The position numbers and the translations under genes are program-made. From Limonium bicolor (Eukaryota; Streptophyta; Magnoliopsida; Caryophyllales; Plumbaginaceae), in NCBI GenBank assembly GCA_023374045.1, contig CM041783.1, forward strand, positions 92,477,298 to 92,541,297: 64,000 bases of DNA, given 5' to 3'. The notes beneath the pieces are model-generated. The model was given only the letters and a program-made list of their open reading frames with translations, was not told where the DNA came from and did no database searches. Shown here one piece after another: positions 12,140 through 53,363 of the stretch (position 1 is its first letter; every line of letters starts with the position of its first letter).

Positions 12140-12299
12140 ACAGAATCCCAAATATGACATTTTCAAGACTTGTTTCATCTATTCTCTACATCCATTGATT
12201 ACCCAAACTTCATACATGAACTTAGGCATATTCTAATACCAAAATATCACTTTGATTCTCCTTACAACATTGTCTTGTTTTTTTTTTGCATAATTTTTG

Positions 12300-25766: not shown

Positions 25767-26098
25767 ATCTACCCCCCTTAAAAGAACTTTGCCCTCAAAG
25801 TTCATACCTCCACATATCCTAAATGTTAGAACACGGGGTTACTTATAAACAATACTTCCATACATCATTAACAACATACTTACATAACATTGGACACCTG
25901 GTCCATACAACATAACATCGGGTACATAACATTGGACACAAGGTCCATACAACATTATCCACATCATTCAGACACAACGGTCTGTAACATAACAACATAA
26001 CATAGACGATGTATTCAAATACACGTCGTACACACATAACCGAAACGGCTCTACCCCCCTTAAAAAGGGGTACGCCCCGTACCCTATACACATAAGGA
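25767..26098 (-). promoter_or_regulatory. B polypurine tracts, stem-loops and 3' UTR
   Basis: The primary tract AAGGGGGGTAGAT lies against the LTR (25767-25779). An 8-bp perfect stem with loop AGGG (sense) is at 25784-25803. The second copy of the tract is at 26049-26061, with a 7-bp stem at 26068-26084, just after the stop codon of pol. Between them are short 'acataac' repeats and no gene. Confidence 0.75.
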
Positions 26099-31700: not shown

Positions 31701-33250
31701 TCCCATTGGCTCTTTAGGTTAATTATTAAGCAAATATAGCTCAATTTCCTAGTACATAAAACTACATTAAGAGAGGTCATTTACCTCTTTGTTTTCCAAG
31801 CTTTCCCACATGTTTTCTCTTGTTCTTTCTTGGTTGAAAATCGGCAAGGAGCTTTTATCACTTGTCAATCTTCTAACCAATACACATATAAGGGTAATGA
31901 GCATTAAGTTTAATACTTAAACTCATAATTAAACCCTAGGTTACATAAGTGTCCTTAAAACACTAAAATTGATGTTTACCTTTGGAATTTGAAAGGGAAC
32001 TTGAATAAGTAGCAAGATAGGACTCCTCCTAGTCCTTTGAAGATTGAATTAAGAAATAAGAGCAAGACAAGGCACCATTAAGGGGTGAATTTTCGGCTAT
32101 ACACAAAAATGAAGGAAACTTGGATTTTCTTTGATTTTCCTTACCTTGAATGAGAGAAGAAGCAAAAGAGCTCTTCAAACAGAACTTTCCCCCTTCAATG
32201 GAGTTTCTTCATGGCATCAAACATGAGCTTTTGAAATTTTGAAAAGAAGGATGAAAGGCCTTGACTCAACTAAGACAAATATGTGCTTAGTTTTTGATTT
32301 GGAGCAATATTGAACATTTGGTGAGCAATTGAAGTTGGAGAAGAGATGTGCTGTAGCAAGAACGATATTGGTTGGGAGAATGGAGGAAGAACACGGTGGG
32401 AACAAGAGGAAATGAAGAAAGGAGGTGAGAGGTATGCTTTGTTAAGATATTTTGACTTATAAAGGTAAATAGTAACTTTACTTTATTTCTTTTTCTTTTC
32501 TTTAGTTGGCTGGCTTGGTATGGTGACTCACACTCTAAAAACCGTGCCCCCTTCATTCTAAAAGATATTTATGGTCTTTGTTGACCATTTAACTAATCAA
32601 AGTTGACTTAAGTCAAAACTAGCACTATTTGAGCACTATTCACATATTAAGGCACATATTTGTGAAATTTTTGATTTCCCATTGATCTAGACTTCCTAAT
32701 GTGATACTAAGTAGTACACATGTTGATTAAAGAGTAATGATGGACATTTAGCCACTCAAAACTCATTTACAAGACAATTTTTCAAAAATGTGCTTTAAGA
32801 CTCCTTAAAGCACATTTTGTGTTTTAACTTGTTTTCAAGCTTGGTTTTCTTTGGTAATTGATTTAATATGTTCATTAACATATTTATAAGGTATAGTTAT
32901 GACCATTAGGTCTTATACAAATTTATCCCAAGCTTAGAGCACATTTTTGCTCTTATTGACTTTAAGGTATTTTCTTGTGTTTTGTTTGGTTTAACTGTCT
33001 ACCAAAGTTTCCTAAGGACTTAATTAGCCTTATTAAATCATAATTGAATATTATTAAGTCTTGGTAGGCTCTTTGGGTCCTAACCAAGTTCACTCCAAGC
33101 TTAGAGCATGTTTTTGCTCAAACTGTATCTTAGTGCTTTATTGCATTTTACTATGGTTTAAATTGTTCACCGATGTTTCTAAGGCACTTTTTAGCCTTTA
33201 CATACCATAGTTTAATATTTAAACCACATATCAAGGTTTGGGGTATTTCA
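28704..33250 (-). repeat. 3' LTR of element D
   Basis: Plus strand TGTAACACCCCATCCAAC ... GGGGTATTTCA. A hairpin array of GGGGCGGTCC type is at 30593-30716. The U5-side hairpin is at 28796-28817 and the double 'cttaggcccttaaa' block near 31546-31586. Confidence 0.92.
30593..30716. repeat. GGGGCGGTCC hairpin array in D 3' LTR
   Basis: GGACCGCCCC and GGGGCGGTCC alternate as inverted pairs in two clusters about 80 bases apart. Cruder and shorter than the arrays of B and C; the second copy is at 40032-40148. Confidence 0.8.
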
Positions 33251-36200
33251 ATCTACCCCCCTTAAAAGAACTTCGTCCTCGAAGTTTACACTTCCCACAC
33301 ATCTTGGATTAGAATACGGGGATTACTTATAGAAATAAAACTTCCATAACCCAACACACTTTACATCACAACCTCGGACTTAATGGTCCGGGTAACACAT
33401 TCACATCCATACATAACATAACATATTCACAAGATAACCTCGGACTCAATGGTCCGGGTATCTTAACAACATTTACACATACAAAACAACCCTTAGACTC
33501 TGGTCTTGGGTAACATAACAACATTTAGACACATAGGTCTTGATAACATAACAGCCTTTAGACACATAGGTCTATGTACACAACACATTTAGACTCATAG
33601 GTCTTGATACATACACTTTAGGAATCAAGTCAAAATAATATTTATTACACATACCACACAACATGTCATAGCATGTATGGTAACCAAAAATATCTTTGAT
33701 ATACACTGTGATCCCGCAGAACCCGGTCGCGATGGACACCTTCCGTCCCCGTGCCTTTGGGAGATCAAAACAATCACTTCAATTTGAAATTTTGTGAGGT
33801 TAAGTAAGAAAACTTTAATTATGTAAAGTATTATCGACGTTTTATAAATACCAATCAAAATCCTTTTTGAAAACACATACAACTCCAAGTCCAACTTATG
33901 CTCTTTGCTTCTTTTCTTAGCGTGGTTATTTGTGACCACTTATAGGAGCTTCAAGAATCATCCAACCCTGATGTGATCAGCATCAGTGTTGAACTATCCT
34001 TCCACCCAATTTGTGTTCGGCTTCCCTTGATCGCATGAAATCAAGTTCCACTCCCACTTCATTTTCAAGCATCAATTAAATCACTCATTTCCAATTTTCT
34101 ATCTTTTAAATCATTCTAGTCATGATCATAACATCTCCAAGGGATAGAACTTCGTCTATCAGTTATTTCCATTCACTTCAATGTTGTTGCCTAGGGAATC
34201 TCATTCTCACTAGGTTCTATGTCGGTTTCATACCCTTTTCGTGAATCACTATATAGTATATATATACACATATATTTTATCAAAATACAACACACCGTTT
34301 CACATTTATATACTGTCGGGGTTTGTTCCCCCGGGAGTTTCTCTACTCCCACACTTGTACTATCACACACACTTGTTAACAAATACACACACTTGTTAAC
34401 AAATACAACACTTATCACAATGGTATTCGCATCTTCTGTGCGCAATTACCACAATTAACCATGAATGAATGCGTATGTTTACATAACACACACACCAATC
34501 ATCAAAACAAATTATTTTGTGCTATGCACAACATAAATCACGTACACTTGTACGGTAATACACACTAAGTGGTTTTGCGCTCTACCCCCCTTAAAAGGGA
34601 TTACGCCCACGTAATCAATCGCTAAACATTGGCTTAAAATGTTCTGCCGTCGTGAAGTGTTTTAACTTCCACGCGGTCTATTACACAATGGATTCTGATT
34701 AGAGGATCTTAACCATATTGGCGGTTTAGTTCCTAAACCAAGAATTCTCATTGGAGTTTGTTTAAACTCTTAGTTGGTTTCGATTCTGGCCTGTTAGGCT
34801 TCTAGGCGTTAATAATTAGCCATTCGCTCATGTTCACCATGTACATTCAACACTTGAATCACTGGCTCACTAGTTTCTGCTACAAAACTCTAATAACTGT
34901 AGAGCTTAGTTGCCCCATTTGTTATTCTTACTGTATTGTACATCCTCAATTGTCACCTTCATCTTGGTAACAATGGTTTCTCAACCGACGCGTGGTATCT
35001 CTTACCGTTAGCGAATTCGGTGAGTTATAAACTTTCCATCCACTTCCATATCAATTTACTGGTATACAGTTATGTATTTCACACTGATTGACTTGTTCCC
35101 TTCGACTTACTGTCGGTTGAGATTGAGCTACTACCTAGTGTGTAGTGCTCTCTCAGCTATTTACAACATATGGGGTATATTCCATACCGATATTTGGCAG
35201 TTAGTGCTACTGTAGTCACTTACTGTTAATCATGTCTCCACATTCGGTTTTGTACAAGTACTCTTTTATTGGTGCGGCCTTGCATTTCCTATGCATCGGC
35301 CATTATAACATTATTCTTCCACAATTAACATGTTTCCAATTCCTAGCTATCCCATTCGATCATTACTGCGCAAGTGCAATACCAAAACATTCAGTCATAC
35401 AGAGTGCAGAGGTGTAAACTCTTGACAGTAAATCTCTTATGCGATTCGCCATGGAATTCACACTGAGTTCCTCATCACATAGTACCTACCACTGGCTTAT
35501 TGCCCAGTTTGTTTAACATCACTTACCTTGCATCTCTACTGAGTTTAACTCATAACTGGTCTTATCTGCCACATCATTATTCAACAACACTTATACAACG
35601 GTCGCTTACTGCGCAACGTGCTTATTGTATAACACTAACTTACATGGTATTTACTGTCACATTAACTTCCACACATATACTTACATCATTCGTATTATGG
35701 TTCATCACTCATTTGGATGACTACTGAATGCTCCTTGAGCATCGATCATTCGAGTCACAAGCCGGCATTATTCAGCTCGGTGTTTCACTTTATACACACA
35801 TACTACTAAGCTAACTGCTCTCTTTCAATAATAACATCGTCCATCTTTAACATATTTCTTGAACTTGATTCACATAACTACCGCTCCTGCGGTCTCACAA
35901 TATCGAGAGGTATCCCCACTCTTAATGCAGTGGTTCGTTTTCCACTCTATTCACTTATATAACATAAACTTCTGCAATCAATCTAATTTACATAACACAT
36001 TTTATTTGTGGCTTATAAGCCTTACTGCCTTGAGCTGCGCTCATTGTAGGCTGTCCACACACATGTACTTCTCTGTACAACATTACATGGTTTGGATATT
36101 ATATTGAGCTCCATGACAAGGTCGTTGCATTCTGTTTCCTTTCATGGGTTGCCCCTTAGGTTTGTCAGTCCGTCTCCTGACAACTTATGTCTAAACTGGG

Positions 36201-38142
36201 TGTTAGTTTCAACCCTTGTGCATCTGTCATGCATTTCGTTCAACAATTGGTGATGCGAACACCCTTCAAGGATTGCTCCTGGGTGTTGTTAAGTTATGCC
36301 TTTACATCTAGTTCACACTTATTGGTACATTCCGTTAGCCACGCCGTTTGCGTTCTTAACTGGCTTATTATCTCCTTCTGTGAAGATCAACATTTCCTGA
36401 TAGTGTAGGTACTCATTCTGGGAGCTTCATCCTGTTCATTGCACATTAATGTGTCCATATTAGATATCTGCCTTGCCATGTATAGGCTGGGTCACCGTTC
36501 CAGCTATCATGTTTATCCCTGAGGATCCTTAAGACATATATGATGTCTTCACATTACAGTTAGTGCACTTCGCACCTCCTGACTCTTAAACATTTCCTTG
36601 AAAGGAATTCACTAATTCCTTTAGTCTCGTTAACTTAACTGAGTTCCTTTACTTCAACCATTCATGGTAATCCTTAGCTCTTGTTTGACTTATACTGCTG
36701 ACCGTAGAACGGAGTCGACTACTTCCCGTGTTTCGGACTCTACTCGTATACATATGTGGGGTACCATACTGATACATTACTACTTACCCAACTAACCCAT
36801 AAGTAGGTCTGTCAGGCCTACAAGCTCCTATCGGAGTGCGGTCTTCCCACAATTCAGTTGGTACACTTGTAGTGTCCGTCACACGCCTAGGTGAAGTATT
36901 CTGTTGTCAATTCCCTTATATTGTCCCGTGACAATATGCGTCCCGTGCTTCCCGAACTTAATCGAAGGAAAGTTTATCCACTGTTGTATCCTTGTCAACT
37001 GTCCTTGGTTTTACTGGTTTGGTTTAGAAGAAGGTTAGAAAGAAGTATTGGTTTGAAAGAAAATCTGGTTTTGAAAGGAAAGAGTTTGAATAAATCTGAG
37101 TTTGAAAGAAAATTTTCATGGTTTCACAACATCTTCTTACCTTAACCAAGTCTAGCTTCTTGCTGACTGGTGTACTTACAATTACAGAGGTTAGGCTAAC
37201 AGGCCCTTCCACTGTTATGACGATCACATTTAACTTTATGGTACTTTACCAAGTACTTTGTAGTGGTTATAAATTTCCCGAACAGCCCTGTTATAGCAGC
37301 ACTTGCTATGGCAAGTGCGCCATGCTAATTGTCTATCGGTTTAACACATACCGGTTGTGGTATTGTTTTTACCCGCACTGTCATCAGTGGCCTTGTTGGC
37401 CCTCACTTGTTCTTACAGTCTTGATAATAATTCCTCCGGATGACTTCTCACTGTCTTTACATGATAATCACTAACTAGGGTGTTTCCCATTCTGGAAGAC
37501 CCTATTTTTCTGTATTGTTTCCTCTTCGTAGCCCGTTCCACGCATTGTCGTGGTTGCTGAGACTTGTCTCTTGTTTGGGCACTACGTTGTAGTTCCTTTG
37601 TCGGTTGGTATACCGTTGGTGTATTATTTATCAACTGTGGTTCCATAGACACTCGTCTCGGGTTTCATTAATCCACTTCTTGTCTGTTACACTGTTGGTG
37701 CGTTGCAAGCTGGTTATCCTCGACTGCTCAGCATGTCGACCCAGGTTGCCGGAAATTTTATTCTTTTATACACAAAATTCCTCATTCTTCGCTATTTAAT
37801 ACGGTCAACATTGTCCAGATGGAAACCGTCTCCGGGATTCCCACTTCTTGGGATCTACCATATGACAGGTCTTCCGTACTCTAAAGGTATTTAATAACAG
37901 CCAGATCGGGTATTCCCGAGTAAGAGAGGACTTCCATCTCTTTGGCGTTGTTTCCCAAGTTATAAAACTGGGGTTGTGGAGGGCGGGATGGATATTGTAG
38001 GTTTCCAGTACACACTGGTAAGTCCTAACTAGTGTATCTCTCACGCTATCACTCAACCCTTAACCCAAAGTACTTAAATCCTAACTCGGTACATCCTAAG
38101 CTCGGTAATTCAGTCATCAGAGCATACTTGTGTAACCACATT
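33251..38142 (-). other. Element D interior, no coding capacity seen
   Basis: Polypurine tract complement at 33251-33263, stem-loop at 33269-33286, second tract at 34581-34592 and its stem-loop at 34599-34616. The remainder is non-repetitive sequence with stops in all frames and no retroviral domain on either strand. Imperfect 'gtttgaaagaaaat' repeats occur at 37050-37115. The leader at 38090-38142 resembles that of B, but the primer site is altered: only ACCA of TGGTATCAGAGC is recognisable next to the LTR. Confidence 0.7.
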
Positions 38143-41100
38143 TGTCCCATCCAATAACAACCACGTAACAACATTCTGCAGCGGAAAATTTACTACTACA
38201 CATTACTTAACTCGTTGGTGTTACACGCCGTTAACCACCCACGTGGCTAACAAGGCTATTACATAAACATTGTACCGGTCTGATGGACTAGATTCCCGAG
38301 CGACTACACATTACTGACCCTTCCATTAACAATAGAAACAACATACACCTTCGGACTGTACCGAGTATTCACAAACTAATGCCGATAACAATCTCGGTCT
38401 TACTACACCTACAGTACATATACAATTTAAATGATTACCCATGTACAACGACTACCCCGTCCTACTCTCGAATGGCTTCCAGCTCTCTGTACCTGAAATA
38501 GGAAAGAAGAGAAAGGGTGGCCCCCAAGGGGCTCAGCACCTTTGCTGGTATGGTAATCCCGCAGCCCACATGCTACCGGGCCACGCACAACTAATTGTCG
38601 TCTTAGCATGCGATTGATTATTTTTAAATCATGCATGCAACTGTAAACACATAACACATAACATTTCGCCTCAATGGGCTCCACAAACGGATAATACATC
38701 CTTACTTGATATGTCACTCATGGTATTCATTATCCCTAGAGTGTTCCTCCTCTAATGGAGCTACCTCCTTAATAGACGACACTTACCCTTAAATCGGGTT
38801 ATCCTTAAACACCTCTTACACAAACTGATCATTTCCATATCAACACTCCTACACAAACATTCCTCACATAACAAACATAACAACACTTTCACGTTTCGAC
38901 GTGCAATGATAACATCGCAATAGGAATTGCATTACAATAACATCACATAACATAACGGGAACGGTCCTCTTAGGAACCGACCCAAACATAGTTAATTCAC
39001 TGGTGAGCCTAGAGAATGGTGTCACTCTCATGGTAAGCTCGTTATACAATAACAACAACACTCATTACCGTCCTAATAGTCGGACGAGTAACTTAAGTTA
39101 AGATGGTACGGGTTTGGAGGCCCGAACACACCACACAAACACATGTTCCCCCTAAACCGATCATAAGTCAGAATAGCTAAGCTTTGGAATAAGCTAATGG
39201 GAGATCATAACCCGTGAGGGAAACAACCATAACAAAGAGAAGGGTAAGGCTAAGAAGGATACCCTCTCCCAAACAACGCGCGACCGGCCAAACCGGATTC
39301 CTCACCACTGTTAGTACATACTTACTTTTAGATATTAGTTAGAACCCCACTATGGAGTCTATCACATCTACACACCATACAGTATTACAACTGGGTTAAA
39401 CACACAAGGGAGATCCCTACATTCACATACACAAACATCACATAATCAACTCACGCATAGCCGTGGTTAGAACGTCCCATGGTTCGGGTCGTTTAATCCG
39501 AATACCGAACTCTCATGTGATCCTAGACTCAGTTAGTTAAGGTTTAACACCTTCGAGGTTAAATGGTATCGGAGTTGAACACGCCGCATATATGAATTAC
39601 TGTAAACTCATTACATGTTTTATCTTACAACGTGGCAAACATACAGAAAAACACATTGGCATACAAGCCGGTGTAATCCGGTAGGACACAGGTTGCAAGA
39701 AAACCATACCTGTCACCGGAGTCCACTTTATCATGTCCACTTATGTTCCTCGAGCAATTCTCGAACAACTGATAACATTACAATTACTTTCATTAACATT
39801 GGAGTAACATGCTTGTTCGTCTAATGCGCCCATAGTACCCCGTCATCCCGTTATATTTAATTTTACACTTGTGATCTTAAGTTCACAACTCTCACATCAA
39901 ACCTAACATTTGTTTACACACTTTAAGACCTTTACATGTCACCAAACAAGGCCTAAACATCATCTAAAACCATCACCATTCAATCCCCCATCATTAGGAG
40001 CCTTAAACAAATTTTTTTCTTCATCTCTGGTCTGGACCGCCCCTCTGGGGCGGTCCCAGGGGTGGTCCACAATAGATGCTACACGTTTTTTTTTCACTTC
40101 TCTGCACTGGACCTCCCCATAGGGGCGGTCCGTAGGGGCGGTCCACTGCAGAACCAATTTTCTAATGTGCTTTTCTCCTCTTTCTGAACTCCAAATTCAT
40201 CACAATTTTTCCTATGCTTTACACATGTTCTCCCACATGTTTTAACATCTTTTGGGCACACTTAAACCCTCTCGAAACATCCCAAAAATTCCTTAAACTT
40301 TACTCAACTTTTACTAAGTCCTTAACACTTAGAACATTTTTTTTCTTACACTTGTAACTTGTATTCTTGCCTAAAACTTCACCTAACCAAAGTACTCCCT
40401 CACTACCTTATAACCACCCTTTTAAACATCATTTGCACTACACTCATCCCCTTTACACACACTCCTCAAGTCTTTCCCACAAGTTGATAATTAAACCTTC
40501 ACAAGGCGTTACACTTTCATTGTTCACCAAACTTTGCACAAGACTTTACGACACCTCCACCATCACCTTGGTGTATCAAGAAATCATCCATTAGTTCCTA
40601 AATCTCCAAGACTATGCCTAAGGCATCTTAACACCTAAGAACACCTTAATTCACTTTCTTTCACCATCTTAACACTTAAAAATTCCTAGTACCTTCTAGG
40701 TCATAAAATCTCATTACAACACAAACTCTTTTGTTTATCAACTAAATTTCGCCATAGCTTCTCTTGTCACCTTACACCAAAACACATTGTTTTTCACCTT
40801 TAGACAATCAAGAACATTCAATCTCTTAATACACACTCTTATACACAAACATATGGTTTTTCATCCTTTAACCATCAAACACATTCACCTTCACAAGAGA
40901 TGTTCTTTACAACAACTAAACCTTTAAACTACACTAGATCACAATATAGTGCATAAACTTAAATTGCTTGGCACTTAGGCCCTTAAATAACATGGATCTT
41001 AGGCCCTTAAATTGCATAAACCTTAAACACTGAATTTCCACATAAATAATGCCTTTGACCTGCAATCACATACAACAATGCTCCCATGTCCTTTTAGTCC

Positions 41101-42681
41101 ACCTTGTGGATAGTTTTCTATCTCATTTCCCATTGGCTCTTTAGGTTAATTATTAAGCAAATATAGCTCAATTTCCTAGTACATAAAACTACATTAAGAG
41201 AGGTCATTTACCTCTTTGTTTTCCAAGCTTTCCCACATGTTTTCTCTTGTTCTTTCTTGGTTGAAAATCGGCAAAGAGCTTTTATCACTTGTCAATCTTC
41301 TAACCAATACACATATAAGGGTAATGAGCATTAAGTTTAATACTTAAACTCATAATTAAACCCCAGGTTACATAAGTGTCCTTAAAACACTAAAATTGAT
41401 GTTTACCTTTGGAATTTGAAAGGGAACTTGAATAAGTAGCAAGATAGGACTCCTCCTAGTACTTTGAAGATTGAATTAAGACAAGAATAGAGCAAGACAA
41501 GGCACCATTAAGGGGTGAATTTTCGGCTATACACAAAAATGAAGGAAACTTGGATTTTCTTTGATTTTCCTTACCTTGAATGAGAGAAGAAGCAAAAGAG
41601 CTCTTCAAACAGAACTTTCCCCCTTCAATAGAGTTTCTTCATGGCATCAAACATGAGCTTTTGAAATTTTGAAAAGAAAGGATGAAAGTCCTTGACTCAA
41701 CTAAGACAAATATGTGCTTAGTTTTTGATTTGGAGTAATATTGAACATTTGGTGAGCAATTGAAGTTGGAGAAGAGATGTGCTGTAGAAAGAACGAGATT
41801 GGTTGGGAGAATGGAGGAAGAACACGGTGGGAACAAGAGGAAATGAAGAAAGGAGGTGAGAGGTATGCTTTGTTAAGATATTTTGACTTATAAAGGTAAA
41901 TAGTAACTTTACTATATTTCTTTTTCTTTTCTTTAGTTGGCTGGCTTGGTATGGTTACTCACACTCTAAAAACCGTTCCCCCTTCATTCTAAAAGATATT
42001 TATGGTCTTTGTTGACCATTTAACTAATCAAAGTTGACTTAAGTCAAAACTAGCACTATTTGAGCACTATTCACATATTAAGGCACATATTTGTGAAATT
42101 TTTGATTTCCCATTGATCTAGACTTCCTAATGTGATACTAAGTAGTACACATGTTGATTAAAGAGTAATGATGGACATTTAGCCACTCAAAACTCATTTA
42201 CAAGACAATTTTTCAAAAATGTGCTTTAAGACTCCTTAAAGCACATTTTGTGTTTTAACTTGTTTTCCAGCTTGGTTTTCTTTGGTAATTGATTTAATAT
42301 GTTCATTAACATATTTATAAGGTATAGTTATGACCATTAGGTCTTATACAAATTTATCCCAAGCTTAGAGCACATTTTTGCTCTTATTGACTTTAAAGTA
42401 TTTTCTTGTGTTTTGTTTGGTTTAACTGTCTACCAAAGTTTCCTAAGGACTTAATTAGCCTTATTAAATAATAATTGAATATTATTAAGTCTTGGTAGGC
42501 TCTTTGGGTCCTAACCAAGTTCACTCCAAGCTTAGAGCATGTTTTTGCTCAAACTGTATCTTAGTGCTTTATTGCATTTTACTATGGTTTAAATTGTTCA
42601 CCGATGTTTCTAAGGCACTTTTTAGCCTTTACATACCATAGTTTAATATTTAAACCACATATCAAGGTTTGGGGTATTTCA
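38143..42681 (-). repeat. 5' LTR of element D
   Basis: Near identical to 28704-33250. The plus-strand left end has lost about six bases (TGTCCCATCC instead of TGTAACACCCCATCC). The hairpin array is at 40032-40148 and the U5-side hairpin at 38230-38251. Confidence 0.9.
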
Positions 42682-43458
42682 CTCCCCATGGTGAAACACT
42701 AGGGCGGATAAAGCCCTTTTCAAGTAGGTCTCTCAGCTACTCCTTGAGCTCTGTCATCTCTGCTGGAGCCATACGATAAGGTGCTTTCGCAATGGGTCCA
42801 GTGCCCGGAACTAAGTCGATCTCAAACTCAACCTCTCGTGCTGGCGGCATGCCCGGCAGTTCCTTAGGAAATACATCAGGAAACTCCGACACTACCGGCA
42901 CATCTGGGCTAAACTCAGGGTCTCTCTCTATGTCCTGGACATAGCAGAGGTATACATCACTCCCTCGTCGTAACTCACGATACATGGACATGGCGGTGAT
43001 GATCTGAGTCGAAGGCTCCCTGGGCCTCTGGCGGTATGATATGGTAACCCCAGATGGACTCCGAAGAAGCAGTCGATGCTCGGCACATAGGATTCTGCCC
43101 TTGTACCGCTCCAACCAGTTCATCCCGACAATCACATCAAACCCAAGTCCGTCGAACTCTATCAGGTCGATCGGGAACTCTTCACCTCTGATTCTTACAA
43201 TGACATCTCGGTGGTAGCGGGTACACCTGATCCGCTCTTTCGATGGGAGAGTGACCAAGAAGTCTGGCATCTCCTCTCCATCTAACCCCAGCCTCTTCGC
43301 AAAAGATAGCGAAACAAATGTGTGTGAGGCTCCAGAGTCGAACAAGATCGATGCATCCACGCCATTCACTGGAAAGGTACCGGTGAGGATTGTGCCGCTC
43401 TTGCCGGCTTCTGCCTCATTGCAGACACTCAGTGTACCTCCCATTCCGAGTGCACAGC
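42682..43458 (-). pseudogene. B protease and start of reverse transcriptase
   Basis: The exon is taken to start at 43458 after the acceptor TTAG. The aspartic protease motif L-F-D-S-G-A-S-H-T-F has Asp36 counted from the Met at 43444. The second flap-side motif is I-V-G-M-N-W-L-E near residue 108. It then runs into the pre-RT linker (F-P-K-E-L-P-G-M-P-P). The frame is stopped by TAG at 42737-42739 where C reads Gln (K-E-Q-L-R-D). The remaining bases to 42682 still encode L-R-D-L-L-E-K-G-F-I-R-P-S-V-S-P-W-G up to the D insertion. Protease would cleave the polyprotein. Confidence 0.88.
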
Positions 43459-43642
43459 CTAATTCATTGGCATACTAATAAGTACTGGGTAACAACACGG
43501 TTGATATACTTCAATAACTCCACTTTATTCATTAACACTTCCTCTTTACAACATTGTTGGTTTACATGGTTGATATAACTTAACACATACATAACTTCCT
43601 TAACATATACTGGCTCAACACATTACAAAAGTATACAAGGCT
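43459..43642 (-). promoter_or_regulatory. Candidate poly(A) region and intron between AlkB and protease (B)
   Basis: After the AlkB stop (43643-43645) the sense strand is AT-rich with AATAAA at 43524-43529, 114 bases downstream of the stop. The segment ends in a splice acceptor-like ...AATTAG at 43459. C has an equivalent stretch with AATAAA at 52395-52400. It looks like a 3' end for a short gag-AlkB transcript. Confidence 0.5.
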
Positions 43643-44382
43643 TTAGAATTGTCTGAAGGTCAAATTCAAACGTCCGGGTTTCATGTGTGTGGCATTGATC
43701 ACTGCCGACGGTGCGGTATTCAGTTTGATCTTCCTGATGCCATGGTATAGCATCCTTGACTGCCCACCCATAACTAGCACATCTCCTGACTTTAGCATTA
43801 ACTTCCTTGCGAGATCAGCACGCTTCTGCTCGCCGTATACAAATACTGCGGTATCACCAATGGACCAAGACACCACGGGTACTCCCTTACTTAGAGACTC
43901 GGGTGACTCGTCCTTATCTTGGTGTAAACCTAACCGTCCACCTTTCTGGTAGAAGTTCACAATACACAAATCTGCTTCCACACTTGGAATTGAATCCGTT
44001 TCAACTTGTTGAGCAATCCCCACGGCGTGATTAACGACCGCACGGAACTCCTCAGGTATACTTGGTACTGTTGCTCCATCTTCGGCTCGCACTTCTTGAT
44101 ATGACTTGGTGTAAGGGTTCCAGTCCTTACCCATGCACATCATCTTCAATTGCATTCTTGATCCGTTCGGATATTCAGGTGTGTAGAAACCTCTAGGTTT
44201 AGCTCCAAGTTCGTCGCATCGTCTGATGATATGGACTTGTGCTTCCGGTGTCAGGTATCCACTTAAGAGTATCATACCTGGCTGGATAACCTGACATTGC
44301 TCCATTGGAAAGTCGGTAATGTTGATGGTGGTTTCTTTAGGGTTTGGTGTGGGTGGGATTGGATAACATATATTGAAGGTTC
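43643..44382 (-). CDS. AlkB-type 2OG/Fe(II) dioxygenase exon in element B
   Basis: Exon of 740 bases, ending in TAA at 43643-43645. Numbered from the Met at 44305, the iron ligands are His128 and Asp130 (G-L-H-Q-D-K-D-E) and His188 (S-R-M-L-Y-H-G-I). The 2-oxoglutarate-binding arginines are Arg212 and Arg218 (G-R-L-N-L-T-F-R), with Asn117 and Tyr119 (V-N-F-Y) in the substrate/cofactor pocket. These match E. coli AlkB and plant ALKBH1-like proteins. An upstream in-frame piece (T-F-N-I-C-Y-P-I-P) follows the splice acceptor ...CTTAAAG. The phase joins the preceding zinc-knuckle exon exactly (Pro-Gly-Thr). The family removes methyl or larger adducts from RNA or DNA bases (m1A, m3C, and in some members m6A or tRNA marks). 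The frame has no stop or shift, unlike gag and pol of the same copy. Substrate cannot be told from sequence. Confidence 0.93.
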
Positions 44383-44529
44383 CTTTAAGTTTAGAATTAT
44401 CTAATTAGGTGACTTTCACACTACACTTTGACTCCTTACTCACATGATAATACACTTGAACTCACTAATACACATAAGCATGAAATGCGGTATGCAATTA
44501 CTTATTACATTCAACAGTTTAGGCGGTAC
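44383..44529 (-). other. Intron 3 of element B
   Basis: Donor CCAG|GTACCG at 44529 and acceptor CTTAAAG| at 44383; 147 bases, AT-rich, phase 1. The homologous intron of C (donor 63910, acceptor 53210) has the same phase and would be about 150 bases without its CACTA insertion. Inferred from frame and sequence; no transcript evidence. Confidence 0.7.
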
Positions 44530-44871
44530 CTGGTCTAGAAGAGGGCCCTGGCGCCTCAGACCGGTCCACCACATTCAGGGTGGCCTTGCTAGGTCCCGAC
44601 CCTTTCCCCTTCTGGGAATCAGTATGCCTCTGATCAGTGGGTGGCTGGTTAGCCGTCTTCGGGCCATCAATAGCTGCTGTGGCCTTACCCTTCCACTGCC
44701 CCTTGGGCTTGTTGACTCTGCTGTTGGGGTTCCGGTAACACTCGTGGTCACGGTGACCCCACTTCTCGCAGTAGCGACACTGCACCTCATTTCCTTTGCA
44801 GTCCTTGCCGGGGTGGTCTCCATTGCACCACTTACAGTAATAGTGGCGCTCCGGTCCAGAGCCCGTGCTAG
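44530..44871 (-). CDS. B Gag zinc-knuckle exon
   Basis: Third gag exon. It has two knuckles in a row: C-x2-C-x3-H-x4-C (C-K-W-C ... H ... C) and C-x2-C-x4-H-x4-C (C-R-Y-C ... H ... C). A basic, Pro/Ser/Gly-rich tail follows, ending S-S-R-P-G at the donor. It would bind genomic RNA during packaging. The acceptor reads TTAGCAG, so two NAG sites three bases apart both keep the frame. The terminal L-N-V-V-D-R is echoed in C by L-H-V-I-D-R at 63911-64000. Confidence 0.85.
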
Positions 44872-44954
44872 CTGCTAACACGATACACACTCATTACTTG
44901 TTTCACAACTTATCAATATACACATCAACTTATCACACAAGATTAAACAATTAC
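44872..44954 (-). other. Intron 2 of element B
   Basis: Donor AAGG|GTAATT at 44954, acceptor TTAGCAG| at 44872; 83 bases, phase 1. Joining restores a continuous Gag frame (P-P-K-A-S-T-G). Confidence 0.65.
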
Positions 44955-45216
44955 CCTTAGGTGGGTAAGAGCGTAGGGGCTTCGCCGCATAACCGTATGT
45001 GAGCTTCAATGGCTCCTCAGCTGTGGTGGTTTGGGCTTGGCCCTTGTCACCCTGGTGCTGACTCTTCTGGGGCTGGGGATAAGGTTACTTCTTCTTCTTT
45101 CCTCCCCCGTACCCCTGCGGACTCTGGCCCTCGCTCGTGGCCTTGCGCTTGTGTGCATTCTCCTCGTCCCTCAGACGGACGGTGATCTCCACCTTAGCAG
45201 CGGCATGATAGCACTC
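44955..45216 (-). pseudogene. B Gag middle exon with one stop
   Basis: Encodes E-C-Y-H-A-A-A-K-V-E-I-T-V-R and a Lys/Gly/Gln-rich linker, typical of plant chromovirus Gag before the knuckles. One TAA (45085-45087) interrupts it; the frame continues in phase on both sides (K-K-K-K-stop-P-Y-P-Q-P-Q), consistent with CAA to TAA. Length 262 bases; ends in phase 1. Confidence 0.75.
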
Positions 45217-45321
45217 CTGAATTTAGGATGGTCAGTCATGCCCCGCAATACATACTCACAAACTCACATTAATACTCACTTGTAGACTACACATATTCAC
45301 ATCACTCTTTACTTAAATTAC
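45217..45321 (-). other. Intron 1 of element B
   Basis: Donor TTGCAG|GTAATT at 45321 and acceptor AATTCAG| at 45217; 105 bases, phase 0. Splicing joins T-L-Q to E-C-Y-H in frame; without it a TAA follows three codons later. Confidence 0.7.
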
Positions 45322-45996
45322 CTGCAAGGTAGTATACTCAGCTGGCCCCATCCCATAGCGAAGACGGTGGCTGAGACCGTAATAGAAACGGTTTACCAGC
45401 ACCCGGTTTGAGTATCCCAGGTCCGGTAACAGGTGGACAAGGCCGGTGAAGGCAGTGTAATACTCATCAACCGACACCTTGTCCCCTTGCCTCAGACTAT
45501 CCAGCTCAAGGCGCTTGGCCTCTTGAACGTGCACAGGGTAGTATTTGGCTCGCAGCAGAGCCGTGTACTCCCTCCATCCAAACTGAGGATCCGCCATCCG
45601 GTCCTCTCTCACAAGCTTCCACCAGTTTTGTGCCGAACCCTTCAGGTAGTAAGCGGCAAGACGGACCTTAGCCTCAGCAGGTACAGCCAAGGTCTCGTAG
45701 GCGGTCTCCAACTCGGAGATGTACGCCTCCAGCTTACGTGGGTCAGTCTCCCCATGAAACGAAGGGGGTCTTAGATCTGCCAATGCCTTGACCCAGTTGG
45801 TCTCTCGTGGCGGTGGCGGTGGTGGTTGAACTCCGGGCATCTGCCCCTGCTGTATCGTAGCTACAAGCTGGGGTACCATCTGGGCCACAGCGGCTGCTAC
45901 AGCCTCAGCCATAACCTGGGCCGTAGTGTTCTCGCCCTGGTCACCCGCATTACCGGTGCCACTTCCGCGGCCTCTACCACGTGGTCTACCTGCCAT
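45322..45996 (-). CDS. B Gag N-terminal exon (capsid region)
   Basis: 225 codons from the Met at 45996, the first in-frame ATG about 200 bases after the primer site. The Arg/Gly-rich N-terminus (G-R-P-R-G-R-G-R-G) is followed by an Ala/Gln helix, a Pro stretch, then the retrotransposon Gag core: F-H-G-E-T-D-P at about 79, A-A-Y-Y-L-K-G-S-A-Q-N-W-W near 113, and L-D-S-L-R-Q-G near 165. It forms the virus-like particle. No internal stop. It is spliced to the next exon. Confidence 0.9.
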
Positions 45997-46212
45997 CTGT
46001 ATTCACATGAATATTCATTAGCAATATGCTTGCACACTTATCGGTCCAACGGTTGTAACGCTTCCCGACAATAAGGTATCTCCACACTTAATTAGTGGTT
46101 AACCTTTCCATAATGTTCACTGAAGTAACTGTAGTTAGGTTTCCTAACTCGGTATATTCCTAAGCTCGGTATTCTAGTCATCAGAGCGATACTTCGCTCT
46201 GATACCACTTTT
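45997..46212 (-). promoter_or_regulatory. B leader and primer-binding site
   Basis: The minus strand just inside the 5' LTR reads five bases (AAAAG), then TGGTATCAGAGC at 46196-46207, complementary to the 3' end of plant initiator-Met tRNA. The site is half-buried in a perfect 10-bp stem (46180-46189 with 46194-46203). The rest of the leader to the gag ATG at 45996 is non-coding. Confidence 0.85.
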
Positions 46213-49200
46213 TGTAACACCCCTAATACGCACATGATACTAAATGAAATCGCAGCGGAATTAAATAACTAAACAGTAACTAACGCTTCGGTGCTACAAC
46301 GCCGTCAACCACCCACGTGGTTGACAAGGCAGAATAAATACAAGTGTACCGGTCTGACGATCAGACTCCCGAGCATAAAACTAAACCATAAATACATCAT
46401 ATACAATACCGAGTGTTTACATGTCCATCACTGTAACACATCACTGTTATCTGTCACAACCAAATATACATCACGCCACGGGAGCACAGGCGCATCCCGG
46501 GCCATCATCCAAAAGTACTCAAAATAAACCACATCCTAGGATCTTGAGCCACTCCGCTTCTTCGATCCTCATCCTGCAGTATAAGAAATATGGATCCCCC
46601 GAGGGGGTCAGCAACCCTTGGCTGGTATGGCTAACGCGCAGCCCATCGGCTACCGGGATACGCGCAACCAATTGTCATGATAACATGGCATTCATTTATA
46701 TACATAACATAACATAACATATGGCTGAGTATCAATGGTGCACAGCACAACAATACATACACAGTGGATTTTCACTCCACGATAACAAACCACAAGGGCC
46801 AAATAACACAAGAGCCTAGAGAGTGATTCACTCTCATGTCAAGCTCGTTAAACACACTCATTACCGTTCTGTTAGACGAACGAGTAACTTAAGTCACAGA
46901 TGGTTCGGATTTAGTGACCCGAACACACCACCACAAACACAGGTTCCCACTAAACCGATCATAAGTCAGAATAGGTAAGCTTTGGAAGAAGCTAGCGGGA
47001 GATCGAACGCCAAATTAAGGAGAACAATCTTAACAACATAAGAGTCGAATCTGATTCAGATATATACTCTTAACTTACATACATGACCGGATAACCGGAT
47101 TCCTCACTTCCCAGTTAACACTTGTTAGAAGTTCATAGTGGAACTTAACAACCAACACACAATAGGTGGTAAGTCATGTTAGACACACACAAGGGAAATG
47201 AGTCACAACATAACATCACAATAATATGAACAACTGTAAACTCATTACATGTTTAAGTCTTATAATGTCATAAACACACAGAAAAACATACAACACACAA
47301 GCCGGTGTAAACCGGTAGGCAACAGACTGCAAGAAAACCATACCTCGGTCCTTGCCTCGACTGGCTTCCACCTTGAGAGAATCCTAAACACATTAGTAAC
47401 GTCGGTTAATTTACGCACTAGTCCATTATTAACATTATCTACTCAACATTACTAGTTTATTTTTATTTTACACTTGTTACAACTTTTCATCCTTTTAATT
47501 GCCTTTAAAACCCACCTAACATGTCTCACATAACCTTATAATATCATTACTAACCAACTACCATTTTTAGATAACAATTCCCATCTTAAAACAATAATTT
47601 TTGGTCCATACAGTGGCCTGTCCGAACTTGTGTCCGAACTTCCAAGTTCGGACGCAAGCCGTGACTTTAGACAGAAAACAGACACACGTCCGAACTTATG
47701 TCCGGACTTCGGAAGTTCGGACGTGAGCCGAGAAAAATCTAGACAGAAATCCATGCGTCCGAACATGTGTCCGGACTTCCCAAGTTCGGACACAGTTCGA
47801 GGATAATCCTAAGGAAGAATGGGTACGTCCGAACTAGTGTCCGGACTTCCCAAGTTCGGACACTGTTCGCGAGTGAGAATCCTTTTACCCAACAGAGCCT
47901 GTCCGAACTTCCACATCCGGACGGAAGTTCGGACAAGGCATTTTACTCAATTTCCAAGCCCTTAAACACTTAACCAAATTTCTCCAAAGCCTCCAACACT
48001 TATAGTATCTTCTCCTAAAGTTTCTAAGTGGTATTCCTTGCCTATTCCAATCATTATACCAAGATATTTCTTCCACACAACATCATTACTTTAACATCAT
48101 TTCTTACAAGCTAAAACTTCTTATGTCATCCTTGAAATCCCTTTTTCTAAGCTTACACTTTTTCCTTATTTTACCAAAGTTTGCCTAAGTCCTTACCTAA
48201 GTCCAAAATGACTTTGGTACATACTAAAACCTCAAGATCATGCCTAAGTCCTTCTCACATCTTAAATCACCCTAATGCATGTTTCTTTCACAAGGAAAAA
48301 CACCTAACCATTCTAAATACTCCTTAACTCATCAATCTCATTTTAAACTCCTAGAACTTCACATTTATTACCTAAATTTCGACATAGGTTCTCCTAGAAC
48401 ATTACTAAACCAAAACACATTGTTCTTACCAACAAACAACCAAGAACACTAAAAATCCATCAAGCACTTATTATACATAAACTCCACTCACAAAGCACTA
48501 CATCACAATATGGTGCATAATTTAAATTGCATGGCACTTAGGCCCTTAAATAACATGGCTCTTAGGCCCTTAAGATGCATAATCATAAACACTGAATTTC
48601 CACAATATTTGCCTTTAACCTTAAAATACAACCAACAACATATGCCTTTTACTAAGCTCTTGAGAACACTTTACTAAGTCATTCACCATTTGCTCTTTAG
48701 GTAGTTTTAACAAGCATTATAAGCTCATTTCCCTAAGGCATTAAACAACATTAGGTTAGTAGATTTACCTCTTTTCCAAACAACCTCTTTCTTGTTTCCT
48801 TTAAAAACCGGTAGGGTATTTGATTCTTTGAAAAGTTCTAAACAATATACAAACATTATAATGAGTATTCAAGCTATAAGCTCCATCTCATTGTAAACCC
48901 TAATTTACATTGTTTCAAAAACATTAATGTAGTTGTTTTACCTTGCTCTTTGAAGAGAGTTTGAATATCTAGCAAGAGAGGACTCCACCTAGTCCATGAA
49001 GAGTTGGAATGAAGCTAGAACAAGGTCACACAAAGAGCTCCTTCAATATGTGACGGTTACCACAAAAACATGAAGGAAATGGAGTTTTTATTGAGATTCC
49101 TTACCTAGAAGCAAAGGAGAGTAACAATATGTAAAAATACAAGCTCAAGCTCCTTCAATGGAGGAACTCCATGGCACCGAAATGGTGGTCTTGGACTTTT

Positions 49201-50054
49201 AAGAAGATAGAAATGAAGAGCTTGATGAGAGGAGAGATTGGTGGTGTTTGTTTTTGATTTGGACAAGTGAGCAAGATTTTACAAGAGGTCAAAGAGGAGT
49301 TTTAATGGAGGTGGTGTGGTATTACCGTGAGAGAACAGCAAGAAGAAGGAAGAAGAAGGTTGAGACCGTGGGAAATGAAAGAAAGAAAGAGAGAGAAGAT
49401 AGAATTGCTTTAAGAGATATTTGTAGTAATAAAGTAAAAAAATAAGTTTAATTAGTTTTCTTTACTTACTTATTATATCAACTAGAGAGTGGTGAGTCAC
49501 CACACTTAGAAAACCGGCCCCCTATAATTATAATGAGGGTATTTTAGTCTTGTTTGTCAATTTAATTACTTATACAAACATATGTTACAAAATAGCTTAT
49601 AAAAATTACTATTCATGAAAACAAGGCACATAGAAGTGAAATTTTTGATTTCCCATTAATATAGACATCCAAATGTGATATTATATAGTACACATATATA
49701 TTTAAGAGTAATGATGGACATAGCCACTCAAAACTCATTTACAAGACAATTTTTCAAAATGTGCTTTAAGACTCCTTAAAGCACATTTTGTGTTTAAACT
49801 TGTTTTCAAGCTTGGTTTTCTTTGGTAATTGGTTTAATATGTTCATTAGTATATAAATGAGGTCTTGGTAAGTTCATTAGGTCTTAACCAAGTTTATCCC
49901 AAGCTTAGAGCACATTTCGGCTCTTATTGACTTTAAAGCACATTTTGTGTTTTATTTTGTTTAAATTTGTTTACTAATGTTTCTAAGACTCTTTTTAGTC
50001 TTAATACATCATATTTAAGTGTTTAAACAATATATTAAGGTTTGGGGTATTTCA
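46213..50054 (-). repeat. 5' LTR of element B
   Basis: Plus strand TGTAACACCCCTAATACG ... GGGGTATTTCA, 3,842 bp. Differences from 21927-25766 are few single bases and short indels. Hairpin array at 47618-47941; perfect U5-side 9-bp hairpin at 46304-46325. The five bases after it are TACGG. Confidence 0.93.
47618..47941. repeat. Hairpin array in B 5' LTR
   Basis: Same five units as 23316-23640, almost unchanged. Open frames at 47536-47973 run through the array and are not genes. Confidence 0.9.
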
Positions 50055-50379
50055 TACGGTGTTCAAATTTTACCTTCTGGCATGTCAAGCATCTCAATAC
50101 AAATTCCGTCACATCTGATTTCATTCCAGACCACCAGAAGTACCTCTTCATGTCTTTGTACATCTTGGAGGCTCCCGGATGGACTGACAATGTGGAACAG
50201 TGTGACTCTCGCAGGATGCGATCCCTTAGCTCGGCATTGCTTCGGGGAACGCATAGCCTGCCATTCAACCGAATCAAACCATCTTCATGCAACTGAAAAT
50301 CGTATTTCTTCTTCTCAAATGTACCATTCTCGATCTTTTGTCTGAATTCGGTTAGGTAAGGGTCGCTCAACTGAGCATC
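50055..50379 (-). pseudogene. C integrase zinc-finger region
   Basis: Continues the pol frame after a TGA at 50380-50382. It contains the integrase HHCC finger (H-C ... H-P-G-A-S-K-M-Y ... C-L-T-C) and stops at F-E-H-R where B is inserted; the frame resumes at 21926 with R-P-G-G-M. Only the insertion breaks it here. Confidence 0.85.
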
Positions 50380-51558
50380 TCACACCTCGTCAACCAAGCT
50401 AGAAGAAGCGAGTAGCGAATGGAGCGAGTGTGTTCGACGGCTCAGGGCGTCGGCTACAACGTTTGCCTTCCCTTCCTTATACTGCAGGTTGATGTCGTAG
50501 TCTAAGAGAAACTCCATCCACCTTCTCTGTCTCAAGTTGAGTTCTTTCTGAGTAAATACATACTGTAAGCTCTTATGGTCGGAGTAGATGGTGATGCTTA
50601 CCCCATAGAGATAGTGTCGCCATATCTTCAAGGCGAAGACAATGGCTCCTAACTCTAAGTCGTGAGTCGGGTAATTCTCCTCATGCTTTTTCAGCTGGCG
50701 AGAGGCATATGCAACAACCTTGCCATGCTGCATGAGTACGCATCCCATTCCTTTGCATGATGCATCACAGTATACCTCAAATCCCTCTGTGCCCTCTGGA
50801 AGAGTAAGGACGGGCGCTGAGGTCAATGAGTCTTTCAGTTTCTGAAATGACAATTCGCACTCATGTGTCCATACAAACGGTGCATCTTTCTTCATCAGTG
50901 TAGTCATGGGCTTAGCGACTTTCGAGAAGTCCCTTACAAATCTCCGGTAGTAACCGGCTAGACCAAGAAAGCTCCTAATGTCGGTAACAGTCTTGGGTCT
51001 ATGCCATGATCGTACAGCTTCTATCTTAGAAGGGTCAACCGAGATACCTGCGCTCGAGATGACGTGTCCAAGGAATGATACCTGATTAAGCCAAAACTCA
51101 CATTTGGAGAACTTCGCATACAGCTGGTTCTCGCGCAGTGTCTCTAGCACTTTCCTCAAATGGGTTTCATGTTCCTCTAGTGATTTGGAATATACAAGGA
51201 TGTCGTCGATGAAGACAACCACTGAAGTGTCCAACTGCTCACTGAATAAACGATTCATGAGGTCCATGAATTTAGCCGGTGCATTTGACAAACCGAATGG
51301 CATCACCGTGAATTCATAGTGGCCATATCTGGTACGGAATGCCGTTTTTTCGATGTCTTGCTCTTTGATTGCAATCTGGTGATACCCTGAACGGAGGTCG
51401 ATCTTGGAGAAGACTGAGGCTCCTTTCAACTGGTCGAATAGGTCGTCGATGCGTGGCAGTGGGTATTTATTTTTGACTGTGACCGCATTCAGCTCGCGGT
51501 AGTCAATGCATAGTCGGAGACTACCGTCCTTCTTCTTCACGAAGAGGACCGGTGCTCC
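50380..51558 (-). CDS. C reverse transcriptase and RNase H
   Basis: Open from just after the TAG at 51559-51561 to the TGA at 50380-50382 (Arg in B). RT motifs: [20 protein letters not shown], active site F-I-D-D-I-L-V-Y-S near residue 110, and L-G-H-V-I. RNase H follows: F-E-V-Y-C-D-A-S, then L-E-L-G-A-I and Y-S-D-H-K-S-L, ending A-D-A-L-S-R-R. About nine in ten residues agree with B by eye. Confidence 0.92.
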
Positions 51559-52328
51559 CTAGGGTGATACGCTCGGGCGTATAAACCCTTTGTCTAGAAG
51601 GTCTCTTAACTGTTCTTTCAATTCGGTCATTTCTGCAGGTGCCATGCGGTACGGTGCCCTGGCAATGGGACCAGTACCTGGCAATAGATCAATTTCAAAT
51701 TCCACTGCTCTCGGTGGTGGCATGCCAGGTAGCTCCTTAGGGAATACATCGGGATACTCGGATACAATGGGTACTTCATCACTGAACTCTGGATCTCGCT
51801 CCAGGTCTTGTACATAACAAAGATACACCTCTTGGCCCTTTCTGAGCTTCCGGTACATGGCCATGGCAGATATGAGTGTGGTCGAAGGCTCTCTCGGTCT
51901 CTGGCGGTAAGATACGGTAACCCTAGAAGGACTCTTGAGCAGCAAACGATGCTCGGCGCAGAGGATTCTACCCTTCTGCCGCTCCAACCAATTCATTCCA
52001 ATGATTACGTCGAATCCCAATCCATTGAATTCGATGAAGGAAATGGGAAACGATTCGCCTTTGATTTGGATTGTGGCTGATTGATAATACTTGGTGCACT
52101 TTACTCTCGCCCTTCGATGGAGAGTAACCATGAAGTTCGGTAGCTCATCCGCATCTAGCTTCAACCTCTTCACAAAGGATGGTGATACGAAAGTGTGAGA
52201 GGTGCCGGAGTCGAATAACACATTGGCATCAATGCCATTTACTCGGAATGTTCCCGTTAGAATGTGCCGCTCTTGCCGGCTTGTGCTTCGGTGAGGATGC
52301 TCAGGTTACCTTCGGTACCGAGTCCACA
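51559..52328 (-). pseudogene. C protease and RT linker
   Basis: Protease motif L-F-D-S-G-T-S-H-T-F with the flap-side I-I-G-M-N-W-L-E, then the linker to S-V-S-P, where TGG has become TAG (51559-51561). Upstream of 52221 the frame is shifted by a one-base loss near 52262 (after G-K-S-G) and probably another near the acceptor at 52329. The residues A-G-K-S-G and T-G-T-F-x-V-N-G are still recognisable. Confidence 0.85.
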
Positions 52329-52469
52329 CCTATTGGATTCACAATTGGATAAGTATTGATGGTGGACACAAGTGGAATTAAATCAACACTGCTCTTTATT
52401 GATAAACCAACCATCATACATGTCGTGTCTCTAATACACGTTACTAATAGATTACATGATACTAGGAAT
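52329..52469 (-). promoter_or_regulatory. Candidate poly(A) region after AlkB (C)
   Basis: Non-coding stretch between the AlkB stop and the protease exon. AATAAA on the sense strand at 52395-52400, 70 bases after the stop, and an acceptor-like CCAATAG ending at 52330. It parallels B 43459-43642 although the surrounding sequence has diverged. Confidence 0.45.
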
Positions 52470-53209
52470 TTAATACTTTCTAAAGGTAAGGTTCAGGCGT
52501 CCTGGTTTCATGTGTGTGGCATTGATTATTGCTGGCGGTGCCGTATTCAACTTGATCTTGTTGATCCCGTGATACAGCATCCTAGAGTTTCCACCCATGA
52601 TTAGGACATCTCCTGATCTCAATACCAGTTTCTGTGCGAGGTCCACACGCTTCTGCTCGCTATACAGGAATACGACGTCATCACCAATGGACCAAGACAC
52701 TACGGGCACTCCTTGTTCAAGAGATTCTGCTGCCTCGTCCTTGTCTTGGTGTAACCCAAGTCGTCCTTCTTTCTCATAGAAGTTGACGATACAGAGATCC
52801 ACTTCGAGTGCGGGGATCGGTTCAGGTTCACATTGTTGTGCAAGTTCTACTGCTTGTGTGATGAGTGTCTGAAACTCTGGTGGTATTGTCCGTGGCGTCG
52901 CTCCGTCTTGTGTTCGTGTCTCCTGGTATGACTTGGTATAAGGATTCCAGTCCTTTCCCAAGCACATCATCTTCAGCTTCATCTTCGCTCCACCGGGGAA
53001 TTCGGGTGTGTAAAATCCACCTTGACCCGTTCCTAGCTCGTCGCATCGTCGGATGATTGAAATTTGCGCTTCGGGTGTCAGGTATCCCTTTAATAAGATC
53101 ATACCTGGTCGGATGACCTGACACTGTTTGTTGGTGTAGTCGTGGTTGGTGATGTCGATCTCTTCTTGATTCAAGTTTACCGGTATCAGGTAACAGATAC
53201 TAAAGCTTC
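52470..53209 (-). CDS. AlkB-type 2OG/Fe(II) dioxygenase exon in element C
   Basis: Again exactly 740 bases, with TAA at 52470-52472. Numbered from the TTG codon at 53174, the ligands are His142, Asp144 and His202 and the 2OG arginines Arg226 and Arg232, all in the same motifs as in B. The V-N-F-Y pocket segment is kept. About 70% of residues match B by eye, with no gap across the domain. The start used here is only the first residue of the open stretch; the real N-terminus is inherited from gag by splicing (acceptor ATAG| at 53210, joining G-P-G to S-F-S-I-C-Y). Intact despite the decay of the protease and integrase around it. It probably acts on alkylated or methylated nucleic acid of the element. 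Confidence 0.93.
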
Positions 53210-53363
53210 CTATGGTTATAAATTCATCTACGGTAAGTACTAGTTTTAACTACTTCATTTCATGCCTCATACATACTTCACTTATTTACTCATGCATTCA
53301 TTCCAACAATTATTCTACTACTTAGTCATGCTACTTCAAGGATTAAAGCACTAGTACAAAAAT

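Follow-up and report, generated by a model that had tools for sequence, protein, structure and literature searches.

The genome of Limonium bicolor holds thousands of element copies, many of them worn, in which an AlkB dioxygenase gene lies between the shell-protein and protease genes of an LTR retrotransposon, and these copies belong to at least three element families, here called B, C and F. The enzyme is predicted to be of the ALKBH1 type, the elements are chromovirus-like, and their introns seem to offer two competing splice acceptors that would give either Gag-AlkB or Gag-Pro-Pol. We propose, with a probability of roughly 45%, that the enzyme is made as Gag-AlkB by acceptor choice and likely demethylates the element's own RNA or single-stranded cDNA in the particle.

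Element B was found in a window of 64,000 nucleotides, the whole stretch of DNA that was analysed, where it lies on the minus strand together with elements C and D. Its 5' LTR (46213..50054) and 3' LTR (21927..25766) are 97.85% identical, with 36 substitutions in 3,815 aligned bases (K80 0.0095), and a target duplication TACGG stands outside both of them (50055-50059 and 21922-21926). The primer-binding site read from the sequence, TGGTATCAGAGC (46196..46207), is presumably of the initiator-Met type and not Arg. Protease and the start of pol occupy 42740..43458 (RVP_2 2.4e-28), the frame being closed by an in-frame stop in this copy. Reverse transcriptase (RT), RNase H and integrase, with stops, follow at 26639..28711 (RVT_1 1.5e-36, Integrase_H2C2 7.6e-19) beyond the nested element D, and the integrase C-terminus (SH3_Tf2-1 2.7e-18) is found at 26064..26750 with a chromodomain-like end read from the sequence. 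An LTR pair, a 5-bp duplication and gag-protease-RT-RNase H-integrase are thus all present, as in Ty3/gypsy LTR retrotransposons. The copy itself is dead: gag exon 2 and pol carry in-frame stops, and pol is split by element D. Element B in turn interrupts the integrase region of element C, an older relative, of which protease, RT-RNase H and the first part of integrase lie at 50057..52329 (open reading frame and domain matches) and the remaining integrase and chromodomain, past the inserted B, at 20754..21926 (SH3_Tf2-1 9.5e-26, Chromo 6.9e-5). The Chromo matches of C (23.1 bits, 6.9e-5) and of another B copy (22.2 bits, 1.4e-4) are preceded by strong SH3_Tf2-1 matches and fall just under the Pfam cut-off of 25.1 bits; on this recognisable chromodomain we class B and C as chromovirus-like.

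Element D (28712..42684), flanked by the duplication CTCCC, has LTRs of 4.5 kb (28712-33253 and 38146-42684) that are 97.4% alike and an inner part of 4.9 kb in which no pol reading frame was seen, and is probably non-autonomous. The ends of its LTRs resemble those of B, and positions 10046-16514, with 84-94% similarity to parts of D, are probably another copy or LTR of the D type. Elsewhere in the window, plus-strand reading frames at 56507-59653 match Transpos_assoc (PF13963) and DUF4218 (PF13960), a combination we take to be that of CACTA-type DNA transposons. Near-perfect inverted repeats resembling foldback or MITE-type elements lie at 53380-53611 (89%) and 63610-63801 (95%), and two long minus-strand reading frames at 8393-10111 have no Pfam match.

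The sequence-only reading of the window had described an intact AlkB exon of 246 codons with all cofactor residues, on the sense strand between the Gag zinc knuckles and protease. The minus strand is indeed the sense strand of element B, and the order capsid, zinc knuckles, AlkB, protease was confirmed, the knuckles being called from CCHC motifs (the Pfam match there is PHD at 18.1 bits, under its cut-off of 24). The frame is open and complete, although the surrounding B copy is dead, and the residues are present, but by its splice sites the exon is longer, running from 44400 to 43643 (43643..44400, minus strand) with 2 nt, 251 codons and its own stop codon. The word exon was apt; the intron system, however, was absent from that description. 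The profile search that had been suggested as a check scored far above background: PF13532 (2OG-FeII_Oxy_2) spans the entire model at 164.7 bits (E 3.7e-48) against a cut-off of 31.2 bits, and gives 155.5 bits (2.6e-45) for the AlkB of element C. With the NCBIfam model of the bacterial AlkB equivalog (NF011930) the element AlkBs reach 116.4 and 105 bits, under its 267-bit cut-off. The iron residues H160, D162 and H220, the 2-oxoglutarate residues R244 and R250 as well as N149 and Y151 are found in the element AlkBs of B, C and F, and an AlphaFold2 model of the B enzyme built from a 25-row alignment has a mean pLDDT of 89.0 and a pTM of 0.89. The first ATG of the frame lies at residue 33 in B (Met-33); C has no ATG before the domain and no Met-33. 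Since the frame lacks an early ATG and yet an FxICY motif in its leader is retained, an upstream exon seems to be needed.

The gag gene is not one frame. Three exons are parted by short, AT-rich stretches bounded by GT and AG, with a GC content of 0.32-0.36 in the intron pieces versus 0.58-0.59 in the gag exons. Exon E1 (45322..45996) encodes the capsid (Retrotrans_gag 9.2e-17, Ty3_capsid 9.8e-11) and ends CTTGCAG/GTAATT; it is followed by intron I1 (45217..45321, GT-AG, GC 0.36), exon E2 (44955..45216, with an in-frame stop in this copy), intron I2 (44872..44954, GT-AG, low GC, its boundary set by the GT rule) and exon E3 (44530..44871), which contains two CCHC knuckles and ends CCAG/GT in phase 1. 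Past this E3 donor, ACCAG/GT, two acceptors were read, TAATTAG/AT before AlkB and GAATTAG/GC before protease. Both are in phase 1, so that E3 could be spliced in frame to protease-pol or, alternatively, to AlkB with its terminal stop. The stretch from E3 to the AlkB acceptor CTAATTAG is intron I3a (44401..44529), and I3b (43459..43642) leads from AlkB to the GAATTAG before protease, both by splice-site reading. An AATAAA that may serve as the poly(A) signal of a short Gag-AlkB mRNA is located at 43524..43529, 114 nt past the AlkB stop.

The same plan was seen in other copies. Among 30 young B loci, which were picked by AlkB score (selection was measured on B/C/F pairs instead), the E3 donor, the AlkB acceptor and the protease acceptor are each retained in 30/30. 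With two mismatches the remaining sites are found in 27/30 (E1 donor), 22/30 (E2 acceptor), 24/30 (E2 donor) and 29/30 loci (E3 acceptor), and AATAAA stands 106-114 nt past the AlkB stop in all 30. In element C the AlkB exon (52470..53239, acceptor AAAACTAG, phase 1) is at the same place as in B, with 70% identity over 246 residues, and an AATAAA follows at 52400-52395, 70 nt past the stop. Two further C copies (L071, L072) and an F copy (L073) share the AlkB splice plan and its phase 1. In the F copy the number of gag introns seems to be higher than in B and C, with one more in the protease leader, and AATTAAA was the only such signal after AlkB, no AATAAA being found. When B (L012) was compared with C (L071), exons were 0.52-0.72 identical, with AlkB (0.72) and protease (0.71 over 251 bases) highest; intron pieces reached 0.42-0.54 versus 0.41-0.46 for shuffles, with I2 highest (0.54 versus 0.41). 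Splice sites and phases have been kept while the intron sequence drifted.

The possibility that the gene is a unique chimera absent from other copies, which the sequence-only reading had named as grounds for rejection, is ruled out by the second AlkB in the same window (53239-52470) and by copies throughout the genome (2,924,550,425 bases, 2,686 contigs). We scored 150 B-type AlkB copies of 96-100% identity, the window's own among them; 145 of the 150 are without internal stop. Since the 150 are the top-scoring ones out of 53,336 first-look candidates, the set is biased towards intact AlkB. A further 147 C-type copies were scored at 92-100% identity. A 27-base pattern across the AlkB acceptor of B has 2,738 genome matches at up to 3 mismatches, its reversed control none. 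Among the first 30 loci listed for this pattern, chosen independently of AlkB integrity, the AlkB frame runs open as far as the stop in 6/30, E3 in 13/28 scored and the first 200 protease codons in 11/27 scored; in dead copies AlkB decays along with the neighbouring gag and protease. The third family, F, emerged from a Silene ALKBH1D-like query with 95 genome matches of 51-60%. The one locus read among them (L073) has capsid, zinc knuckles, AlkB, protease and RT in the same order.

Selection was assessed between families. For AlkB, pN/pS was 0.19/0.71 (B-C), 0.27/0.86 (B-F) and 0.27/0.79 (C-F), and for protease 0.155/0.81, 0.24/0.78 and 0.27/0.90, respectively, the ratios being rough because synonymous sites are saturated or nearly so. 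Across B, C and F, constraint on AlkB thus appears to be about as tight as on protease, with a looser leader of about 33 codons (pN 0.39-0.53).

Copies from which introns or AlkB are missing were also found. I1 is exactly gone in 3/60 loci (L022, L053, L054) and I2 in 2/60 (L018, L067). Direct E3/Pro junctions with AlkB removed were found in 13 B-type and 9 C-type copies, with 0 in the controls. Ten of the 13 B-type copies were fetched: four also lack I1 and I2 (L031, L034, L037, L039), three have both (L032, L033, L036), two have I1 and one side of I2 (L035, L038) and in one I1 is missing (L040). In a tree from which 30 loci (L041-L070) were left out as too short, these ten form one clade (SH-aLRT 100), so the B-type copies may reflect a single loss of AlkB that then spread. 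AlkB loss is seen separately in C, where copy L074 has kept I1. Compared with AlkB-bearing loci, the AlkB-less B-type copies are about 77-90% alike in gag and 86-95% in pol, and L074 72% in gag and 88-89% in protease; the greater divergence of gag (about 72-90%) than of protease and pol in L031-L040 and L074 hints at recombination between sublineages. Against these 13 and 9 E3/Pro junctions, the genome search returned no E3/AlkB joined copy for B and none for C. This is the strongest finding that speaks against Gag-AlkB, and because of it the fusion is given here as a prediction only. AlkB mRNAs that end early at AATAAA and are not copied could explain why such copies are missing, but the F copy lacks this signal.

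The nearest solved structure by sequence is rice OsALKBH1 (235 bits), followed by E. coli AlkB (up to 84.5 bits) and mammalian ALKBH1 (up to 48.3 bits). By fold, OsALKBH1 again ranks first (E 3.0e-27, 48% identity), before E. coli AlkB (1.8e-16) and ALKBH5 (1.5e-8), and no ALKBH5 chain was returned by the sequence search of solved structures at E 0.01. Among the best 120 of 3,927 proteins below 1e-10, the more closely named ones are plant AlkB or ALKBH1C/1D-type. On sequence and modelled fold the element enzyme is therefore classed as ALKBH1-type and not ALKBH5-type, and an ALKBH5/9-type enzyme as in orchids was rejected. An origin from plant viruses was also rejected, the best viral model being 18% identical; in a scan of viral contigs one stretch matched a pattern and none encoded a relative. 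In a 47-row tree whose bootstrap had not fully settled, one branch (100/100) parts the element AlkBs (B, C, F and P0001-P0004) from 40 plant ALKBH1 rows, and in a 62-row tree the branch separating the element proteins and P0001-P0004 from the plant ALKBH1 rows has an SH-aLRT of 100; both trees were midpoint-rooted, and the plant rows include two Caryophyllales hosts. Separation by one branch fits one old capture, apparently from a plant host. Beyond P0001-P0004 no further element-type AlkB stood out among the best 120 of 2,757 (7,997 candidates scored), and P0121 was discarded as a high-scoring relative because its score is high only through a duplicated domain. The host ALKBH1 gene was not located with the Silene ALKBH1D-like query, whose 95 matches gave the F element (one locus read), and the N-terminal part of that query had no genome match.

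In the mechanism we favor, the E3 donor would be joined to the protease acceptor for Gag-Pro-Pol and also to the AlkB acceptor for a Gag-AlkB ended by the AlkB stop. The capsid part of the latter would carry the enzyme into particles, where its substrate may be a methylated base in element RNA or single-stranded cDNA, either 1mA/3mC or N6-methyladenine. 1mA and 3mC block reverse transcription. Besides the missing E3/AlkB junction, the loose constraint on the leader and the low share of open AlkB frames (6/30) in copies chosen independently of AlkB integrity count against this mechanism. Erasure of marks or damage on the element's own RNA or cDNA, the function offered by the sequence-only reading, is plausible.

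Other readings of the gene and its junctions have to be weighed against this mechanism. The AlkB-less copies could be the ancestral ones, with AlkB inserted into a continuous gag-pro frame and the flanking introns not reflecting AlkB splicing. The single clade of the ten B-type copies and the similarities given above for these copies and for the C-type copy L074 would agree with such a history, which demands, however, insertion at the same base and in the same phase in B and C separately, though the element AlkBs of B, C and F form one group. Four of the ten B-type copies moreover have neither I1 nor I2, as expected of spliced RNA, and we judge this order of events to be improbable. We hold it to be very improbable that AlkB is just carried along and does nothing for the element: the gene is broken in 24 of the 30 copies not chosen by its integrity, but in these copies gag and protease are disrupted at about the same rate, constraint on AlkB is as tight as that on protease in the three families and the cofactor residues are kept.

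The remaining alternatives concern where and on what the enzyme acts. AlkB might be made alone, unfused to Gag, and have its site of action in the nucleus. There it would act on the chromatin of the element or of the host (6mA, R-loops, Polycomb) and keep element DNA open to transcription, as is done for host genes by rice ALKBH1. This nearest characterised relative acts on 6mA in single-stranded DNA and R-loops and counters PRC2, according to the available text of PMC10469495, and for mammalian ALKBH1 a preference for bubbled or bulged DNA is described in the part of PMC7054317 at hand. The lack of any E3/AlkB joined copy likewise favors a stand-alone product, whereas no in-frame ATG precedes the leader, C is without the Met-33 of B, and the AlkB acceptor and its phase are retained in B, C and F; we regard a separate nuclear enzyme as rather unlikely. 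Similarly doubtful, and slightly less likely, is an m6A-RNA eraser by which element mRNA would escape the m6A control of the host, a role proposed for the orchid elements and demonstrated for ALKBH9B on ONSEN. Precedents are the orchid element with its in vitro m6A activity, in the accessible portion of PMC9289625, and the host ALKBH9B, as summarised in a review (PMC12786077, available part); the enzyme found here is, however, predicted to be ALKBH1-type and not of the ALKBH5/9/10 type, with ALKBH5 at 1.5e-8 by fold and absent at E 0.01 by sequence.

The sequence-only reading had known of no standard chromovirus layout that includes an AlkB gene. This stands for the arrangement of nucleocapsid, AlkB and protease, but AlkB in a plant Ty3/gypsy element has already been published. 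As far as the available text of PMC9289625 goes, the Phalaenopsis Gypsy_Pa_2799 family consists of Ogre/Tat Ty3/gypsy elements of 25.5 kb with an ALKBH5-type AlkB active on m6A in vitro, which is located at the C-terminal end of a separate 565-aa ORF2 beside a single intronless gag-pol ORF, and among 121 angiosperm genomes screened such AlkB-Ogre elements occurred only in two Phalaenopsis species. In the literature outside preprints and most subscription journals, titles and the opening of abstracts point to no other primary paper on a transposable element with AlkB; this work is reviewed in PMC12786077. Both systems are plant Ty3/gypsy elements with a PF13532 AlkB that has all cofactor residues, and both have been amplified in the genome. 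In contrast to the orchid family as there described, B, C and F are chromovirus-like, their enzyme is predicted to be ALKBH1-type, it lies between zinc knuckles and protease, and gag is split by introns; the orchid elements use a tRNA-Arg primer site, that of element B being TGGTATCAGAGC. Lineage, enzyme branch, position and splicing plan differ, and the element AlkB of B, C and F is probably a capture independent of the orchid one.

Partial likenesses were found in other systems. Ogre elements, likewise of the plant Ty3/gypsy order, have an intron that only some of their transcripts lose, but in the available text of PMC6317226 this is one gene-free intron between protease and RT, whereas B, C and F have several gag introns, one of which holds AlkB. 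Splicing yields a separate Gag product in BARE1, which is a Ty1/copia element and adds no enzyme to Gag according to the accessible part of PMC3735527. Two competing acceptors giving Gag-AlkB or Gag-Pro-Pol were not found described in the literature examined, preprints and most subscription journals lying outside it, as far as the available texts go. Plant ALKBH1 (rice OsALKBH1, PDB 5xeg/5xoi; ALKBH1C/1D) has 48% identity, the same fold (E 3.0e-27) and the same active site, but is a host gene with its own N-terminal part, and the element AlkBs stand apart from it on a long branch. AlkB of plant RNA viruses is likewise carried by a replicating RNA but is remote, with 18% identity for the best viral model. 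In betaretroviruses a dUTPase is encoded between nucleocapsid and protease, an enzyme of nucleic-acid upkeep at the same place; it is another enzyme, reached by frameshift and not by splicing, and serves as an analogy only.

Taken at its widest, our proposal is that an intron-bearing chromovirus lineage uses alternative 3' splice-site choice to produce a Gag-AlkB, carried with the capsid, by which methyl lesions or marks are removed from the lineage's RNA and from its single-stranded cDNA as it is made, that this is a second, independent AlkB capture, out of the ALKBH1 and not the ALKBH5 branch, and that base methylation is a recurrent barrier to retrotransposition; we put this forward tentatively, with the odds somewhat against it. 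If it is true, two plant Ty3/gypsy lineages would each have taken up a demethylase, from different AlkB branches and at different places. Two separate acquisitions would argue that retrotransposons are genuinely hindered by base methylation, be it of RNA, of cDNA or of both, and the enzymes of B, C and F, widely different in sequence with the same active site, would make this question testable.
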